Shown here: piece after piece, positions 22,425 through 63,357 of the stretch
Layout of the letters: every line of letters starts with the position of its first letter
Numbering within the stretch: position 1 is the first letter of the stretch
Assembly (NCBI RefSeq): GCF_000026985.1
Contig: NC_017390.1
Coordinates: forward strand, 3,335,244 to 3,399,243
Direction: 5' to 3'
DNA length: 64,000 nucleotides
From: Erwinia pyrifoliae DSM 12163
Lineage (GTDB): Bacteria; Pseudomonadota; Gammaproteobacteria; Enterobacterales; Enterobacteriaceae
Notes under the pieces: generated by a model
What the model saw: the letters and a program-made list of their open reading frames with translations, nothing else
Told to the model about the DNA's origin: nothing
Databases searched by the model: none
Program-made: the position numbers and the translations under genes

Positions 22425-23225
22425 TCATGGCAATAACTCCTTAAGTTTAGCGGTAAAACAATTATGCCTTTTATCTTTTTTTAAGGTGTTAACATAAATA
22501 AAAAGGGGGCAGTGTGAAATGACAGGAAGAGACTGGTAATCTTTTACCATCGTATTCTTAGGGGGAAGGCGAAACAGCAGCCCTTCGCCGCTTTTAAATG
22601 TGGACTGAAGATGTGATGGATTATCAACCTGCCTCAGCACACCGCTTCCTCCTCGTGCATGAAGTTCAGCGAGCGATCGCTGGAAGTATTTTAGCTTCTT
22701 GGTCTCACTTTCAGCTAAAATTGGCATATGTAACCACTTATCCCCCACATTTTTAGAACAGCAAAGCTCCAGAACCAGGTCCATTCTTATCGGTTCAAAA
22801 TGCATCGGAAATTCTACAGGCTGTAGGCTGATATATATATCGTCATCAGGATGGATGCACTCTGCATATTTTATCGATGAGCACTTTGGCAGTGCACTCT
22901 CACTGATAGTCAGCAGATCCGATAATATTGATGTTGATATATAAGGCGAGGCAATCAAGAACTCTTGCTGCTCCGGATGTCTTCTTGTCATATTTTTCAG
23001 CGCCATGTAAAGCGGTAAAAGCTGCTGATAGATACAATCCGCTGCCGGGGTCGGGGTGATATTATTTCGTTCAATAATGAAGAGTTGTTCACCCACCCAA
23101 CCTTCAGTGAGTTTTAACATACGTGAAACAGGTGGTACCGTCAGACATAGCTTATCAGCTGCAGTTTTCAGACTTTTTTCCTGATACAGAGTGATAAAAA
23201 CCTGCATCGATTTAGATATAAACAT
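22425..23225 (-). CDS. LysR-type HTH protein flanking dspF
   Basis: This 266-aa protein has an N-terminal LysR-type HTH: MFISKSMQVFITLYQEKSLK, TAADKLCLTVPPVSRMLKLT, VGEQLFIIERNNITPTPA. The rest is shorter and less conserved than a standard LysR effector domain (usual total ~295-310 aa). It contains EFLIASPYISTSILSDLL and ends near RHNCFTAKLKELLP. It is low in GC compared with dsp genes. It lies 720 bases beyond dspF, same strand, with its own promoter region. Target unknown. Confidence 0.65.
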   Translation of the reverse strand: MFISKSMQVFITLYQEKSLKTAADKLCLTVPPVSRMLKLTEGWVGEQLFIIERNNITPTPAADCIYQQLLPLYMALKNMTRRHPEQQEFLIASPYISTSILSDLLTISESALPKCSSIKYAECIHPDDDIYISLQPVEFPMHFEPIRMDLVLELCCSKNVGDKWLHMPILAESETKKLKYFQRSLAELHARGGSGVLRQVDNPSHLQSTFKSGEGLLFRLPPKNTMVKDYQSLPVISHCPLFIYVNTLKKDKRHNCFTAKLKELLP

Positions 23226-44797: not shown

Positions 44798-45346
44798 TTA
44801 AGAAAATACTGACTGCTTCAGCGTGACGCGCGCGCGCGACAGACGTGAACGCACGGTGCCAATCGGGATATTTAAATGTGCTGCGATATCCTGATAGCTG
44901 CCGTCTTTCTCGACCAGCATGTTCATCAGACGGCGGGCATCTTCCGGCAATACGGCAATGGAATTAAGCGTCGAGTTCAGCAGGCGCTGATATTCGGTGA
45001 TATGGCTTGGATCGTCGCCCTGAGTCAGAATGATATCGTCGTCCAGCTCATCACAACGCGGCCGTCCGGACTGCAGGCGAAAATGGTTGCGTACTAAATT
45101 TAAGGCAATACCAAACACCCAGGTTTCTGGCCGTGACGCACCGGCGAATTTGTCACGGTTACGCAAAACTTCCAGCCAGGTCATTTGCTCCAGATCCTCG
45201 GCATCTTCGCGATGGGAAACGCGCTTGCGAATAAAATGATGCACGCGTCGCCCATGCTCACGAAAGATACCTTCCCAATCAATATTCAGCGGTAGCCCTT
45301 CGTTGACCGATGTGGGTTCTGTTGACTGCAGGTGAATTTCTGTCAT
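44798..45346 (-). CDS. hrpL: HrpL, ECF sigma factor of the T3SS regulon
   Basis: This 182-aa sigma factor has region 2 with DAEDLEQMTWLEVLRNRDKF and ETWVFGIALNLVRNHFRLQS. Region 4 has LPEDARRLMNMLVEKDGSYQ and IAAHLNIPIGTVRSRLSRAR. It recognises hrp boxes (GGAACC-N15/16-CCACnnA) and switches on all T3SS operons here. It is transcribed from a sigma54 promoter at 45398-45412 under HrpS. It is divergent from the hrpJ operon that it controls. Confidence 0.95.
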   Translation of the reverse strand: MTEIHLQSTEPTSVNEGLPLNIDWEGIFREHGRRVHHFIRKRVSHREDAEDLEQMTWLEVLRNRDKFAGASRPETWVFGIALNLVRNHFRLQSGRPRCDELDDDIILTQGDDPSHITEYQRLLNSTLNSIAVLPEDARRLMNMLVEKDGSYQDIAAHLNIPIGTVRSRLSRARVTLKQSVFS

Positions 45347-45562: not shown

Positions 45563-45590
45563 GGAACCGATGCGCTAATCGCACCACACA
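45563..45590 (+). promoter_or_regulatory. hrp box, hrpJ operon promoter
   Basis: GGAACC-N15-CCACACA matches the consensus fully. It is 35 bases before the hrpJ ATG. Confidence 0.93.
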
Positions 45591-54861: not shown

Positions 54862-55944
54862 GTGGCGGAAAAAACGGAAAAACCTACGGCTAAAAAGCTA
54901 CAGGATGCACGCCGTAAAGGTCAGGTTCCGCAAAGTCAGGACGTGCCCAAACTGCTGATTTGCGCCGGACTGGTGGAGACCGTGCTGGCGCTGGACGATG
55001 TGGGTATGCAAAAACTACAGGCGCTGATGAGGCTGCCGTTGGCGCGCATTGGTCAACCTTTTGAGCTGGCGTTAAGCGAAGTGGTGAGCAGCGCTTTGGT
55101 ACTGGTTGCCACCTTCTGTGGCTTAACGGTGGCGATAGCCGCGCTGCTGCGCATTATCGGCGGCTGGATCCAGTACGGCCCGCTGTTCGCGCCGGAAGCG
55201 CTGAAGCCGGACTTCAACCGCCTGAACCCGATTAATCAGTTTAAGCAGATGTTTTCCGTCAAAAAGCTCAGTGAAATGTTTAACAACATCGTGAAAGCCG
55301 CCGCTATCAGCACCATTTTTTATCTGGTACTGACGCCGGATCTCGAATCGCTGGCGCGGCTGGCTTATGGCGATCTCGACAGCTTCTGGCCCGCCGTTGA
55401 AGTGCTGCTCACCCGCGTTTCGCGCCAGACGCTACTGACGCTGCTGGTACTGACGCTGCTGGACTTTGGCCTGCAAAAATACTTTTTTATCAAGCAGCAG
55501 CGCATGAGCCATCAGGATATCCGCGATGAACACAAACAGTCGGAAGGCGATCCGCATATGAAAGGCCACCGCCATGCGCTGGCACATGAGTTACTCAATC
55601 AGCCAGCGGCAGCGGTCAAGAGCAAGCCGGTAGAAGAAGCCGACCTGCTGCTGGTTAATCCCACACACTATGCGGTAGCGCTCTATTATCGCCCTGAACT
55701 GACGCCGCTGCCGCGCATTATCTGTAAAGGGGAAGATGGGGAAGCGAAAGCGCTGATTGCCCGTGCGCAGCAGGCCAATATTCCGGTTATCCGCTTTATC
55801 TGGCTGGCGCGCACGCTTTACCGTTCGCAGGAGGGGCAGCTGATCCCGCGCCATACGTTACAGGCGGTAGCCCAGGTTTACCGCGTACTGCGTCAGCTGG
55901 AAGGCCAGATAAACGATGAGGTGATTGAACTGGAGGCCGAATAG
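54862..55944 (+). CDS. hrcU: HrcU, autoproteolytic substrate switch protein
   Basis: This 360-aa FlhB/YscU family protein uses a GTG start: MAEKTEKPTAKKLQDARRKG (Val to fMet). Four membrane helices fill the N-terminal ~210 residues, then the cytoplasmic domain carries the autocleavage motif NPTH in LLLVNPTHYAVALYYRP. Cleavage after Asn switches export specificity (established). It is the last gene of the hrpJ operon; the GNAT hrp box follows 3 bases after its stop. Confidence 0.95.
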   Translation: MAEKTEKPTAKKLQDARRKGQVPQSQDVPKLLICAGLVETVLALDDVGMQKLQALMRLPLARIGQPFELALSEVVSSALVLVATFCGLTVAIAALLRIIGGWIQYGPLFAPEALKPDFNRLNPINQFKQMFSVKKLSEMFNNIVKAAAISTIFYLVLTPDLESLARLAYGDLDSFWPAVEVLLTRVSRQTLLTLLVLTLLDFGLQKYFFIKQQRMSHQDIRDEHKQSEGDPHMKGHRHALAHELLNQPAAAVKSKPVEEADLLLVNPTHYAVALYYRPELTPLPRIICKGEDGEAKALIARAQQANIPVIRFIWLARTLYRSQEGQLIPRHTLQAVAQVYRVLRQLEGQINDEVIELEAE

Positions 55945-55946
55945 CA

Positions 55947-55974
55947 GGAACTTTTAGCTGCCGTTCGCCACCCA
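55947..55974 (+). promoter_or_regulatory. hrp box before GNAT-thioesterase pair
   Basis: GGAACT-N15-CCACCCA differs from the consensus only in GGAACT for GGAACC. It lies 3 bases after hrcU and 31 bases before the GNAT ATG, the same geometry as the hrpJ box (35 bases). Confidence 0.75.
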
Positions 55975-56005
55975 TCTCCTGAAAAATGCGCAAGGAACAT
56001 GGCCG

Positions 56006-56425
56006 ATGAGTATGAGAGTGACCGCCACACCGCATCCTGAAGATGTTAATCATATCCGTCAGAAACTGATGGCGTTCAATGCACAACATGTCGATGTTGA
56101 AGAAATAAAAGAGCTGGCCGTTTTCCTTGATGGCGATGACGGCAACAAAATAGCCGGACTGCTCGCCACCACCTGGGGAAACTGGATGCATATTCAGTTG
56201 TTATGGGTCGAAGAAAGGCTGCGCGGCAGCGGCCACGGTGCCAGGTTGCTACAGGCGGCAGAGCTTGAGGCCATCGTGCGCGGCTGTCGCCGCGTTTGCG
56301 TCGATACCTTCAGCTTTCAGGCGCGGGAGTTTTATGAAAAGCAGGGTTACCGGCTGCAAATGACGCTGGAACAGATGCCGCATCATCATCGACAACATTA
56401 TCTGATTAAACGACTGGATGATTAG
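56006..56425 (+). CDS. GNAT N-acetyltransferase
   Basis: This 139-aa GNAT protein starts MSMRVTATPHPEDVNHIRQK. The acetyl-CoA pyrophosphate loop is VEERLRGSGHGARLLQAAEL (R-x-x-G-x-G/A), and strand/helix VCVDTFSFQAREFYEKQGYR is the motif B end. Soluble, substrate unknown. Located after the hrcU stop behind a hrp box, it is probably HrpL-induced. It may modify a small molecule, for instance an hsv product or precursor (speculative), or act in the host if secreted; no secretion signal is obvious. Confidence 0.85.
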   Translation: MSMRVTATPHPEDVNHIRQKLMAFNAQHVDVEEIKELAVFLDGDDGNKIAGLLATTWGNWMHIQLLWVEERLRGSGHGARLLQAAELEAIVRGCRRVCVDTFSFQAREFYEKQGYRLQMTLEQMPHHHRQHYLIKRLDD

Positions 56426-56480
56426 ACCCGACGACTTACCCTTGTTAACCTGTTTTAAAATAAGCCATTAAGGAATAACC

Positions 56481-56864
56481 ATGTTTTGCAAACACTATGA
56501 CGTCGACCCGAACCATGTTGATTTCCAGGGTGTGGTGGATGGACTTTATTATCCGTTCTATTTGGAATGGGCGCGTCATGCTTATATGGCGGAAGCATTG
56601 GGGCTGGTTCTGGAGGAGGAGTTTAAGCAGGGCCGCATTCATATGCTGCTGGAATACACCCTCAAGTTTAAGAGGAGCCTGAAAGCCGGTGATAAGGTGG
56701 TGGTCACCTGTCAGCCGCAGAAAAATGAAAAGCGCAGCCGGGTGAATTTTGTCCAGCAGATTTTGGTTAACGACGTGGTTTATGCCGAAGCGGTATTTAC
56801 CGCCACCTGTTTAGTCAACGGCCGCCCCGGCGTGCCCGCCAGCCTGGCTGAGATCGTCGGATAA
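56481..56864 (+). CDS. Hotdog-fold acyl-CoA thioesterase
   Basis: This 127-aa single hotdog domain protein is of the 4-hydroxybenzoyl-CoA thioesterase/YbgC type. VDFQGVVDGLYYPFYLEWAR is the active-site helix (Asp/Gly-Val-Val and Glu), and the rest is strands such as AGDKVVVTCQPQKNEKRSRV. It lies 55 bases after the GNAT gene on the same strand without a terminator between, so probably co-transcribed. It converges with hsvC. Substrate unknown. Confidence 0.85.
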   Translation: MFCKHYDVDPNHVDFQGVVDGLYYPFYLEWARHAYMAEALGLVLEEEFKQGRIHMLLEYTLKFKRSLKAGDKVVVTCQPQKNEKRSRVNFVQQILVNDVVYAEAVFTATCLVNGRPGVPASLAEIVG

Positions 56865-56890
56865 GCCACGTCTGCACTGACTGACGGCAC

Positions 56891-56917
56891 CCCCGGCCGC
56901 TGCGTTGCGCGCCGGGG
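56891..56917. terminator. GC-rich hairpin between thioesterase and hsvC
   Basis: CCCCGGC / GCCGGGG (7 bp, 13-base loop) lies midway between two converging genes. No T-run, so a weak terminator candidate. Confidence 0.45.
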
Positions 56918-56939
56918 ACGGCAAACGACAAACCTGAGA

Positions 56940-58202
56940 TTATGATTGGCAATCCGCCTGGCGCGGCCCTGCGTAAACCCGATACTCCTCCACAATCCGT
57001 TTCAGATCTCGTGCCACGCCGCTACGGTCACCGCTGAAGACAAATACCCCCAGGCTGTCCTTGTGGCAGTAGAATTCACCGGAGGCGATATCGCCGCGAT
57101 GCCGGGTTTTGTGCATCTTCAGGGTGGGCACGCGGTCGATGCCCGGCAGCGCAACCTCGGTCACATAAAGTGTTTCTTCGGCGAGATGTCTTTTAGGGAA
57201 CATCATATAGCCGTAAGCCTCAGCCTGGCGACCAAAATGCACATCGCCGACCAGACCCAGCTGTGCCGCCAGGTGTACCAGGCCCAGGTCCGGATTGAGT
57301 CCCCAGGCAAATTGTATCATCTCAATGGTCGAGCCACTGCCAGGACGGAAAGCAATCTCAAGTAGCTCCGCGCCTTCGCCCGCATCGCCAAAAGCTTCAA
57401 TATGATAAACGCCATCAGGGCCATCGAAAGCCGACAAGATCTTCGCGGTGAAAGGACGCCAGAAGCGCTGGAGATGGTCATCGGTCACGGATAAATACCC
57501 CAGCGGGCATTCGTTAAGATAGTCGATGGGTTTACCGATATATTCTCCTACCGACAGGAACGCCAGGCGGCCTTGCAGCACGACAGCATCAATTTGATAG
57601 AGGGGCTGCGGATTGTAACTTTCAATAAAGTATTGCTGCTCGTCCATGTCGCGATATTCATCACTGCCCGCGATACTGACGGCGGCAAGCTGGCTGGCAT
57701 CGCTGATGATCCTGACCCCGACCGAGCCAGCCAGAGAACGCGGTTTCAGCACAAGCGGAAACGTCGCTTCTCCCTGGTGGATCGCATCCATGCTGATTTC
57801 TCGCGCCGTCGGAATGCCGGCCTGCTGAGCGATCTGCTTCATGCGTTTTTTGTCGCGAAAACGGGCCGCCACATCGAACGTCAGCCCCGGCAACTGCCAG
57901 CGGTCGTTGGCCCATGCGGCAATCCACACGGCAAATTCGTCATTCGGGATCGCCGCCGTGACGGCATACATGCTGGCTATCTGCTCAAACTTCGCTTCGA
58001 CCTCGGCGTGCACGGCAAAGTCCCGGATGATAAAGGTTCCCTCGCGCTTCTGCGCTTCTCCGGCCTGACCCAGCAGATCCTCCAGCAGGTAGATAAACTG
58101 CCAGTGCTGGATCGGGTAAAGCTTTCCAAGCCTGCTCACCGCCTGAGCGACATCCAGTTCGGAAGAGACGATCAGAATGGTGTGTGATTGTGTTGTGTCC
58201 AT
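56940..58202 (-). CDS. hsvC: HsvC, ATP-grasp ligase
   Basis: This 420-aa ATP-grasp enzyme is of the carboxylate-amine ligase type. The N-terminal pre-ATP domain is MDTTQSHTILIVSSELDVAQ. FRDKKRMKQIAQQAGIPTAR and FPLVLKPRSLAGSVGVRIIS form the ATP-binding part with Lys, and VYHIEAFGDAGEGAELLEIA and FRPGSGSTIEMIQFAWG contain the metal/phosphate residues. In P. syringae HsvA-C make phevamine A, a modified spermidine with Val and Phe; HsvB and HsvC would form the amide bonds. It lies 39 bases after hsvB, to which it is clearly paralogous. Confidence 0.9.
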   Translation of the reverse strand: MDTTQSHTILIVSSELDVAQAVSRLGKLYPIQHWQFIYLLEDLLGQAGEAQKREGTFIIRDFAVHAEVEAKFEQIASMYAVTAAIPNDEFAVWIAAWANDRWQLPGLTFDVAARFRDKKRMKQIAQQAGIPTAREISMDAIHQGEATFPLVLKPRSLAGSVGVRIISDASQLAAVSIAGSDEYRDMDEQQYFIESYNPQPLYQIDAVVLQGRLAFLSVGEYIGKPIDYLNECPLGYLSVTDDHLQRFWRPFTAKILSAFDGPDGVYHIEAFGDAGEGAELLEIAFRPGSGSTIEMIQFAWGLNPDLGLVHLAAQLGLVGDVHFGRQAEAYGYMMFPKRHLAEETLYVTEVALPGIDRVPTLKMHKTRHRGDIASGEFYCHKDSLGVFVFSGDRSGVARDLKRIVEEYRVYAGPRQADCQS

Positions 58203-58241: not shown

Positions 58242-59594
58242 TTAACGGGCGATCGGTTTTTCCGCCGCCACCTGCACCGCATAATGGGCATTGATGTAAT
58301 CGACGTCCCGCGCCACCCGATCGCGGTCACCACAAAATACGAAGGATCCCAGCGAATCCTTGTAGCAGTGAAATTCACCTGATGCGACATCGCCAACGGC
58401 GGGTACCTGATGGATCCTCAGGGTGGGCATGTTGTCGAGCGGGGGCAGAGCAACCCCGGTAACATACAGCGCCTCAGTTGCCAGGTGCTTTTTAGGGAAG
58501 GTCATATAACCAAATGCCTCTTCCTTACGCTGGACAGCGATCGCGTCATTCAGCCCCAGCTGCGCAGCAAGATGGATAAACTTCAGATCCAGCCCATATA
58601 CCATGTCGATCATTTCGACAATGGCTGCACCTCCCGGACGCCAGGCGATTTCCAACAGCTCCGGATCTGCACCTGAATCAGCGAACGCTTCTATATGGTA
58701 AACCCCCTCGGGCGCATCAAAGGCGGTTAACACGGCTTCAGTAAAGGCCCGCCAGCTACCGTCAATGGCCCGATCGTCAACCGACAGTACGCCTACCGGC
58801 TTTTCATGCAGGAAGCCAAGCGGCGTGCCCAGATATTCGCCGACGGAAATAAACGCCAGCTCACCGTTAAGTACCACACAGTCAATATGGTGAATGGTGC
58901 CGGGGTTGTACTGTTCAATAAAGCACTGCTTTTCATCCATATCGCGGTATTCGGCCAGCCAATCAACGTCCATCGCATAAAGCTGCTCCGCGTCAGTGAT
59001 GATCTTGATCCCCACCGAGCCAGCCATAGAACGGGGTTTAACAATAACCGGGTATTGCACACGGCCATTTTCAATGTCATCTAACGTGATTTCCCGCGCC
59101 GTCTTAATACCGGCCTGTAGCGCAATCTCTTTCATGCGCTTTTTATCACGGAACTTGCGCGCCACCTCACGAGTCAGGCCAGGCAGCGCCCAGAGATCGT
59201 TGGCTAAGGCGGCGGGATAAACGGAGAATTCATCGCTGGGAATGACCCGCGCGACATGATGCTGACGGGCGATATTATCCAGCATCGCCTCAATATCCGA
59301 TGCAGCGGCAAAATCGCGCACGATGAAATTTTCGGGGCGTTTTAATTCATCACGGGCCACGCCGAGATAATCTTCTATCAGATAAATAACATGCCATCCC
59401 TCCAGCCCGTATCTTGCTTTCACGGCATCGACCGTGTTCGCGACATCCAGTTCGGAAGAGACGATCAGTAATGTTTGAGTTGGCTGCATTTCGAGGCCCT
59501 TGGTGCGTATCTGATTGAGATAAAAGCTTTCATCTGGCAGGGCAGCACGGCCCGGCTCGTTACCGTCAGCCAGCGGCTGACGGATATGTCGCAT
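58242..59594 (-). CDS. hsvB: HsvB, ATP-grasp ligase
   Basis: This is 450 aa from MRHIRQPLADGNEPGRAALP. This start has GAGGA 5 bases upstream and is 7 bases from the hsvA stop. The ATP-grasp homology proper begins at an internal Met, MQPTQTLLIVSSELDVANTV (59489), so the N-terminal ~35 residues are an extension or leader relative to HsvC. Core motifs: FRDKKRMKEIALQAGIKTAR, YPVIVKPRSMAGSVGIKIIT and VYHIEAFADSGADPELLEIA. It likely ligates an amino acid in phevamine-type synthesis (by analogy). It arose with hsvC by duplication. Confidence 0.88.
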   Translation of the reverse strand: MRHIRQPLADGNEPGRAALPDESFYLNQIRTKGLEMQPTQTLLIVSSELDVANTVDAVKARYGLEGWHVIYLIEDYLGVARDELKRPENFIVRDFAAASDIEAMLDNIARQHHVARVIPSDEFSVYPAALANDLWALPGLTREVARKFRDKKRMKEIALQAGIKTAREITLDDIENGRVQYPVIVKPRSMAGSVGIKIITDAEQLYAMDVDWLAEYRDMDEKQCFIEQYNPGTIHHIDCVVLNGELAFISVGEYLGTPLGFLHEKPVGVLSVDDRAIDGSWRAFTEAVLTAFDAPEGVYHIEAFADSGADPELLEIAWRPGGAAIVEMIDMVYGLDLKFIHLAAQLGLNDAIAVQRKEEAFGYMTFPKKHLATEALYVTGVALPPLDNMPTLRIHQVPAVGDVASGEFHCYKDSLGSFVFCGDRDRVARDVDYINAHYAVQVAAEKPIAR

Positions 59595-59601
59595 TAAGTC
59601 C

Positions 59602-60702
59602 TCAGATATAGCTTTTCAGGCTGCCGCTACGTTTGACATCCAGCGTGGCGCAGTGGAATGACCCGCCGAAGCTCTGGAAATGCTTGAACGGGCAGAGGAT
59701 GGTTTTGAAGCCCCACTGACGGAAAGCGGAGATCAGCGCTTCTTCGTCTTCTTCGACGATGACGGTCTTTTCATCCAGCATCAGGACATTGGTGTGGATC
59801 CAGTTGGACGACATGTATAAGGGGTGATCGTCCGGCAGATTAGAGGCCGGCGGAGTGAGGATCTCCCAGTCTTTGAAAATATCCGGGATCTGCGGCACCC
59901 AGCCTTTGTTGATTAATACGCGACCCGGTGCTAACGGCAGGATCGTTGTATCGATGTGCATCGGGGCCGGCTCTTCAAACTCGTAGATATGGACGCGATA
60001 ATCCGGCCCCAGGGCTCTGCGCAACCATTCAATCCCCTTCTTGTTGGTTGCATGACTGCGCTGGCCGATAATGTCCCGGCCCATCTTCATAAAGTCGGCC
60101 GCGTCGAAAAGCGGCTCAACTTCGGTGATGATCGAACGGAACGGGAATTCCTGTTCAAAGTCGAACTCCTTCTCCCACACATCGTCCGACAGCATCGGCT
60201 TGGGAGCAGCGATCCACTCGGCGCCACGCGTAAAATAGTCGTTCAGTATGTCGCGAAAGGCGAAGGTCTCGAAATAGCGGCTGCGCCATGACATCGGGAC
60301 TTCGATGATTTTCTTGCCGATGGCAAAAAGACAGTCTCTTGGCATGGCGGAATAAAACGTTCCCCCGGTGGTAAAATGCGGCGTCATAATCGGCTGGTGG
60401 TGATTCGACTCATTGGGCCTTTTTACCCTGATTCCCTCGGCTTGCAGGATTTGAGCCAAGGTATCAACTTCTTGTCTGGCTTTGGCCAGCAGCTCTTGCG
60501 GAAAACGTTTACCGGAGTAAGTCTGGAAAAAATCACTGTTCTCTTTCGGGATGATGGCTTTTAAGCTTTTGTCCCAGTCTGGTACGCGAATATCATCCAT
60601 GATCCCGACGATGACTTCTTCCAGCGGGTCCCATTCTGTATAGACTTCGACAGGGCTTTGACTCTCTGAAAAATAAGAGAATTCTTCTTTTTGATAATGC
60701 AT
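59602..60702 (-). CDS. hsvA: HsvA, amidinotransferase
   Basis: This 366-aa glycine-amidinotransferase family enzyme begins MHYQKEEFSYFSESQSPVEV. The fold contains SNHHQPIMTPHFTTGGTFYS, catalytic His/Asp at APMHIDTTILPLAPGRVLIN and the nucleophile Cys in FGGSFHCATLD near the C-terminus. HsvA transfers an amidino group, probably from arginine to a polyamine, as in the P. syringae phevamine pathway. It is the first gene of hsvABC; hrp-associated systemic virulence is the source of the name in E. amylovora. Confidence 0.92.
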   Translation of the reverse strand: MHYQKEEFSYFSESQSPVEVYTEWDPLEEVIVGIMDDIRVPDWDKSLKAIIPKENSDFFQTYSGKRFPQELLAKARQEVDTLAQILQAEGIRVKRPNESNHHQPIMTPHFTTGGTFYSAMPRDCLFAIGKKIIEVPMSWRSRYFETFAFRDILNDYFTRGAEWIAAPKPMLSDDVWEKEFDFEQEFPFRSIITEVEPLFDAADFMKMGRDIIGQRSHATNKKGIEWLRRALGPDYRVHIYEFEEPAPMHIDTTILPLAPGRVLINKGWVPQIPDIFKDWEILTPPASNLPDDHPLYMSSNWIHTNVLMLDEKTVIVEEDEEALISAFRQWGFKTILCPFKHFQSFGGSFHCATLDVKRSGSLKSYI

Positions 60703-60858: not shown

Positions 60859-60886
60859 TGTGTGTGCTTTAGCGGGGTAGAGTTCC
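60859..60886 (-). promoter_or_regulatory. Candidate hrp box for hsvABC
   Basis: On the minus strand GGAACT-N15-ACACACA is 157 bases before hsvA. It has GGAACT for GGAACC and one mismatch in the CCACnnA part. The distance is long compared with other boxes here. Confidence 0.5.
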
Positions 60887-63329: not shown

Positions 63330-63357
63330 TGTGTCGTCTGGCGGAGTTTTGAGTTCC
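63330..63357 (-). promoter_or_regulatory. Candidate hrp box for hrpK
   Basis: On the minus strand GGAACT-N15-CGACACA is 59 bases before the hrpK start. It has GGAACT and one mismatch in CCACnnA. The spacing fits the other boxes. Confidence 0.68.

Follow-up and report, generated by a model that had tools for sequence, protein, structure and literature searches.

An acetyltransferase gene linked to hrcU behind a predicted HrpL promoter in the hrp islands of Erwinia and Pantoea

Gene order and a predicted HrpL promoter downstream of hrcU

The window analyzed here, a continuous stretch of 64,000 nucleotides from Erwinia pyrifoliae DSM 12163 (contig NC_017390.1, positions 3,335,244 to 3,399,243), carries a hrp/hrc island. 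Behind hrcU lie a predicted hrp box, a gene for a GNAT-family acetyltransferase, and a gene for a hotdog thioesterase-like protein (Table 1). The hsvCBA genes follow on the opposite strand, so that the pair and the hsv genes converge, as an earlier sequence-only reading of this DNA had described. A terminator-finding run reported no terminator between the thioesterase gene and hsvC, and only a weak hairpin was found in that gap by a separate folding test. The genome also encodes a second HsvA-like protein outside the window (G000:C3:131720-132817, 74% identity), in line with the report that E. pyrifoliae Ep1/96 has a second HAE-like cluster (PMC2897811).

Table 1. Features of the window around the hrcU-linked acetyltransferase gene
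Feature	Position	Strand	Basis
hrcU (sctU), last conserved gene of the hrcQRSTU export-apparatus operon	54862..55944	+	ORF; plasmid-island orthologue annotated sctU
hrp box GGAACT-N15-CCACCCA, predicted HrpL promoter	55947..55974	+	Intact in 13/15 orthologous loci
GNAT-family N-acetyltransferase, 139 aa	56006..56425	+	ORF, profiles, model pLDDT 89, PDB fold matches 1y9w and 2g3a
Hotdog (4HBT_2) acyl-CoA thioesterase-like protein, 127 aa, intact	56481..56864	+	ORF, profiles, model pLDDT 88, YbgC-like fold
GC-rich hairpin, possible terminator (weak)	56891..56917		Convergent gap between thioesterase gene and hsvC; z -1.79; no T run
hsvC, ATP-grasp-like ligase	56940..58202	-	PF13535 just under cut-off
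hsvB, ATP-grasp-like ligase	58242..59594	-	ORF and profile search
hsvA, amidinotransferase by literature	59602..60702	-	No Pfam or NCBIfam match here
Probable hrp box of hsvA	60859..60886	-	One mismatch
Probable hrp box of hrpK	63330..63357	-	One mismatch
hrpL, ECF-type sigma factor expected to read the box	44798..45346	-	Pfam sigma-70 regions 2 and 4; name from cluster position

HrpL promoters have the consensus GGAAC(C/T)-N15/16-CCACNNA, and the sequence ahead of the acetyltransferase gene conforms to it. The sequence-only reading had placed this box directly after hrcU and likened its position to that of the hrpJ box, and both points are borne out: two nucleotides separate the hrcU stop (55944) from the box, and 31 nt lie between the box and the ATG (56006), as against 35 nt for the ORF that the reading named hrpJ (box 45563-45590, ATG 45626). 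An AAGGA ribosome-binding site stands at about 55992-55996, and HrpL is encoded in the same genome. Across the window, GGAAC-N15..17-CCACNNA occurs 5 times against 0.25 expected, a count reached by none of 100 shuffled sequences, and by arithmetic from that expectation the chance of a right-strand match in one 61-nt gap is about 1 in 10,000. Over the whole 4.07 Mb genome, however, the motif with spacers N16..17 is hardly enriched (18 matches versus 13 for a backward control). A genome-wide count therefore does not serve as functional proof, and the evidence for the box is its location in the island and its conservation rather than the motif alone.

That conservation is extensive. The box stands intact 1 to 2 nt after the hrcU stop, with a varying spacer, in 13 of the 14 loci compared, a conserved promoter-like location ahead of a gene; across these 14 islands the box lies anywhere from 31 to 87 nt ahead of the start codon, while its place behind hrcU is fixed in 13. 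The exception, an Erwinia MAG (L053), has a box with two mismatches. In a fifteenth locus (L200, genome G111), the acetyltransferase gene follows hrcU after 30 nt with no box, the best site having three mismatches. Together, the boxless and the degraded locus argue that hrcU and the acetyltransferase gene can stay linked without the promoter. Since 13 of these 15 loci have an intact box, HrpL control of the acetyltransferase gene is very likely in this strain, in keeping with the earlier suggestion that the pair probably belongs to the HrpL regulon. A perfect hrp box also lies 49 and 54 nt behind hrcU in two loci (L146 and L151) of the 14 with the more distant type of Erwinia type III secretion system (T3SS; HrcU 55-56% in these two), which have no acetyltransferase gene within 1.5 kb of hrcU.

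HrpL dependence of this kind has already been stated for E. amylovora, where a 2026 review that cites McNally 2012 describes five enzyme ORFs of the hrp cluster, arranged in two operons, as HrpL-dependent (PMC13123061). The E. amylovora locus tags given as 0519 for hrpK, 0520-0522 for hsvA-C, and 0525 for hrcU leave two between hsvC and hrcU (PMC7106674), and from this numbering we infer that those two are the acetyltransferase-thioesterase pair. HrpL control of the enzyme pair is thus in essence published, and the sequence-only description of the pair as a candidate for an undescribed virulence module is not supported. The same reading held that neither gene has an assigned role, and the literature searched, outside whose scope many subscription papers fall, agrees: it showed no paper assigning a role to either protein, and the tags EAMY_0523 and EAMY_0524 gave no matches in it.

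A further earlier claim, that the pair is expressed independently of read-through from hrcU, is not sustained: no terminator-like site was found between hrcU and the acetyltransferase gene on that strand, and both routes of transcription are possible. No sigma-70-type promoter was found in 55500-57200.

Two enzyme-like proteins under purifying selection

The acetyltransferase scores above the cut-offs for PF00583 (43.8 bits versus 20.7), PF13508, and PF13673. Its alignment shows R73 and G78 to be invariant and G76 nearly so, residues of the acetyl-CoA-binding motif of the GNAT family, to which the protein belongs by this motif and by its predicted fold. The model is confident (pLDDT 89), also in the block of first residues (pLDDT 82). 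Its best sequence and fold matches are 1y9w from Bacillus cereus and 2g3a from Agrobacterium tumefaciens, whose titles name them as acetyltransferases only, with no substrate, and which had no link to secretion in anything examined; other fold neighbors include both small-molecule and protein acetyltransferases. A search of its own genome for a paralogue gave only a partial match at 27%.

The thioesterase-like protein lies above the cut-offs for PF13279 (37 versus 25.5 bits) and PF03061, and its model adopts a hotdog fold of the YbgC-like type (matches 1s5u, 5t06, and 5v10). Asp14 is invariant in 22 of 22 aligned sequences and aligns with the Asp of 1z54, so that profile, fold, and conserved residue all place the protein in the 4HBT_2 hotdog group. 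It shares fold and Asp with YbgC/FadM-type 4HBT thioesterases but falls far short of their NCBIfam models, scoring 31.5 bits against a cut-off of 141.35 for the YbgC equivalog (TIGR02799) and 21.4 against 68.7 for the YbgC/FadM subfamily; an assignment as MenI was also excluded by NCBIfam cut-offs.

Both genes are under purifying selection and are less constrained than hrcU. NG86 dN/dS relative to the window is 0.10-0.21 for the acetyltransferase (six comparisons) and 0.06-0.16 for the thioesterase (five comparisons with an intact copy), versus 0.004-0.07 for hrcU. The thioesterase of genome G218 (E. amylovora by product) was left out of this calculation, as its reading-frame stretch runs past a break in the frame.

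That copy is one of several damaged ones. It is frameshifted in its last third (G218:C1:604087-604465; L130 9488-9866), and a second E. amylovora protein (P0184, assembly of 208 contigs) is identical to its product, with the frame broken in the last third. P0085 agrees exactly with the first part of the window protein, and its break falls near the same residue, a discrepancy that may be genuine to the strain or may stem from assembly; in P0098, the C-terminal frame is broken elsewhere. Intact E. amylovora thioesterases also exist (P0074, 18 contigs; P0075, 1 contig).

Separate distributions of the acetyltransferase, the thioesterase, and hsvABC

We compared 15 loci with the acetyltransferase gene (the window, L050-L055, L130-L132, L175-L178, and L200/L201 from G111). 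The genomes searched, among them 37 of the genus Erwinia and a sample of 392 from the family, came from larger groups. An HrcU match at E 1e-60 is present in 22 of the 37 Erwinia genomes. All eight with HrcU of at least 89% identity, the window included, carry the acetyltransferase gene behind hrcU, at 71-92% identity to the window protein in the seven relatives, and none of the 14 with HrcU of 52-58% has it within 1.5 kb of hrcU. The gene also lies directly downstream in all eight plasmid records with HrcU of at least 80%, all from Pantoea (four loci opened, four judged by coordinates), as well as behind hrcU in Klebsiella indica and in a Pantoea stewartii contig. Among the other family genomes sampled, 18 have HrcU of 65-71%, and only G111 carries the gene within 1.5 kb.

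The age of this linkage was addressed with trees of 26, 45, and 43 hand-chosen rows. In the 45-row tree, from which the Enterobacter proteins P0015 and P0016 (48% and 47%) were left out, 14 island acetyltransferases form one clade (96/81) with the G111 protein as sister (95/94). P0015 and P0016 are not separated from the island proteins in the 26-row tree. With six proteins added, the 43-row tree groups the island proteins with P0010 and P0012 (84/96), and the G111 protein, which has a long branch, joins them, along with P0015 and P0016, in a group of 19 rows (98/93) that is not resolved internally. The island acetyltransferases therefore belong together; the sister position of G111 is not secure, since the return of P0015 and P0016 left it unresolved. 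That the linkage in G111 stems from the same event as in the other islands is likely. G111 has a hrp-type island in a 2.7 Mb family genome (L201; G111:C11:30000-49000) with a HrpL homologue at 64%. The weighting of explanations given below depends mainly on the close islands, so that the weaker argument from G111 leaves it unchanged.

Past the acetyltransferase gene, the islands diverge. The next ORFs encode a D-Tyr-tRNA deacylase and a yiiD-type protein in G111, a HipA-like protein in K. indica, and a GNA1162-like lipoprotein in the Erwinia MAG. A search for 32 window ORFs beyond the gene in these three loci gave no match save one stretch of 52 residues, to the LysR-type ORF at 22425, located 10 kb beyond the gene in K. 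indica and outside the hrp genes. With ordinary ORFs and no counterpart of the window's genes following, the acetyltransferase gene is most simply viewed as the one that closes the hrp export operon in islands of this kind. Two genes past the acetyltransferase gene, G111 also encodes a fused protein of GNAT and YiiD_C thioesterase domains, in which both folds share one chain. In the plasmid island of Pantoea sp. JZ29, a VirK-family gene occupies the slot of the window's thioesterase (L178 7475-7957).

The thioesterase gene is distributed differently, a result at odds with the earlier picture of a two-gene module. It follows the acetyltransferase gene in 9 of the 15 loci (the window, L050, L051, L052, L130, L131, L132, L176, and L177) and occurs in 9 of the 37 Erwinia genomes, two of which lack the island acetyltransferase. 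Its closest plasmid relative outside the islands is encoded on E. billingiae pEB170 (86.5%); the 10 kb examined of the E. billingiae thioesterase plasmids contain no T3SS gene, and E. billingiae is reported to have no T3SS at all (PMC2897811). Further copies (about 71% and 76%) lie on pEB102 and pGABEKP28_3 beside genes for an SPI-7-type helicase, ParB, and a TraI-domain protein. On pEB102 and on a Pantoea piersonii plasmid (L180 and L181, 5001-5387), the common order is SPI-7-type replicative helicase, two small ORFs, thioesterase, and TraI-domain gene, and 53 Klebsiella plasmid records also match the thioesterase family. In the close islands examined, the acetyltransferase is thus a fixture and the thioesterase is optional and in places broken. 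The former is probably a fixture, and an old part, of the Erwinia/Pantoea-type hrp island in general, and the latter is probably a later arrival.

The hsv genes follow yet another pattern. They adjoin the acetyltransferase gene in 4 of the 15 loci (the window, G218, P. stewartii L055, and JZ29), and both they and the thioesterase gene adjoin it in two, the window and G218. At E 1e-60, hsvA matches occur in 4 of the 37 Erwinia genomes, one copy being broken, and in only half of the eight genomes that carry the acetyltransferase gene. G250 has, outside its hrp island (G250:C1:484521-485605; L161, L163), an hsvA-like gene that a stop splits into two stretches and that is followed by an hsvB/C-like gene. 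A genome search found no hsvA in G247, which we take as the assembly of L053; the locus itself ends about 2.8 kb after the acetyltransferase gene. E. piriflorinigrans and G248, by inference E. tasmaniensis, have the pair and no hsvABC, and G248 keeps the box as well; E. tasmaniensis has been described as having no HAE region, a description keyed on hrpK and hsvABC (PMC2897811).

Possible roles of the pair

With moderate confidence, we favor the following account. Once HrpL is made, the promoter behind hrcU would transcribe the acetyltransferase gene and, where present, the thioesterase gene, perhaps aided by read-through. The acetyltransferase most likely stays in the bacterial cytosol, where, judging from family and fold, it would use acetyl-CoA to acetylate an amine of some small molecule that the bacterium encounters or produces in the course of infection; a host amine or an amino-acid-like compound is a candidate. 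The thioesterase would be an accessory that most likely hydrolyzes an acyl-CoA by means of the conserved acidic Asp14, and the pair would stand outside the hsvABC pathway.

An alternative is that both genes are passive hitchhikers behind a hrp box, with no role in infection and with the thioesterase being lost piecemeal. The frameshifted copies in G218 and P0184, the altered C termini of P0085 and P0098, the absence of the thioesterase gene from 6 of the 15 loci, and its presence on E. billingiae plasmids that have no island all fit this idea. The acetyltransferase gene, however, is missing from no close island examined, is under purifying selection, and keeps its box in most loci, so we consider the hitchhiker account rather unlikely.

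The fixed location of the acetyltransferase gene raises another alternative, in which the enzyme acts on the secretion system itself and acetylates a T3SS component, a chaperone, or a secreted protein inside the bacterium. The lock to hrcU, which holds in all close islands examined despite their differing flanks and also in the distant island of G111, would fit such a role, and some of the fold neighbors are protein N-terminal acetyltransferases. Yet a T3SS does not generally need the enzyme: no gene for it lies within 1.5 kb of hrcU in any of the 14 Erwinia T3SS with HrcU of 52-58% or in 17 of the 18 family genomes with HrcU of 65-71%. The enzyme also has relatives outside such islands, and linkage to hrcU may be mere co-inheritance; we regard this account as improbable. 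A bolder form, in which the enzyme is an integral, HrpL-timed part of the island that acetylates a T3SS component or cargo, or a small molecule that gates the T3SS, appears very unlikely.

The sequence-only reading had proposed that the pair could tailor the same metabolite as hsvABC, the product in question being phevamine A or a variant. In the window and in G218, the pair and hsvCBA are convergent neighbors; a near-consensus hrp box also precedes hsvA, and the acetyltransferase gene and hsvABC share one island in P. stewartii and JZ29. The distributions, however, point elsewhere: the pair mostly occurs without hsvABC, hsvABC also occurs without the thioesterase, and an intact thioesterase gene beside hsvABC is found in the window alone among the 15 loci. 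G218 keeps hsvABC alongside its frameshifted thioesterase gene; intact E. amylovora copies, which may have hsvABC beside them, temper this point. The review attributes phevamine A in P. syringae to hsvABC (PMC13123061). Tailoring of the hsv product is accordingly a highly improbable role, a two-gene module with hsvABC is rejected on the distribution across the loci examined, and on this evidence the two enzymes stand outside the phevamine pathway.

Effector genes carry upstream hrp boxes, as this pair does, but the proposal that either protein acts as a type III effector in plant cells is extremely unlikely, given that neither has an N-terminal region beyond the enzyme domain when set beside relatives from other genera, that the acetyltransferase model is confident from its first residues, and that thioesterase relatives reside on plasmids of ordinary make-up. 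The relatives compared include, for the thioesterase, the plasmid copies with no T3SS gene in the 10 kb examined, and one relative, P0142, has a longer annotated start. The matching N termini argue against the gain of a secretion signal for the hrp island.

Among the closest known systems is the HAE (Hrp-associated enzymes) region of E. amylovora, reportedly due to Oh et al. 2005. In G218 its order is that of the window: hrcU, acetyltransferase, and thioesterase, with hsvCBA and hrpK following on the opposite strand, the thioesterase being intact in the window and frameshifted in G218. P. syringae likewise has non-effector genes under hrp boxes, among them the hsv operon PSPTO_0873-0875. The P. 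syringae HrpL-regulon paper states a physical linkage of hsv genes and the T3SS for Erwinia and P. stewartii, and its main text does not contain the words acetyltransferase, thioesterase, or GNAT.

Overall, the tempting story that these enzymes form a side branch of the hsv pathway is corrected on the loci examined. If acetylation by the hrcU-linked enzyme did act on the T3SS, it would be a layer of post-translational control of which we found no mention in the literature examined. In a regulon that has been studied so much, a conserved acetyltransferase gene behind a hrp box, for whose product the searched literature gives no substrate, is a clear gap that can be tested, and the species that bear the pair and lack hsvABC allow it to be studied apart from phevamine.
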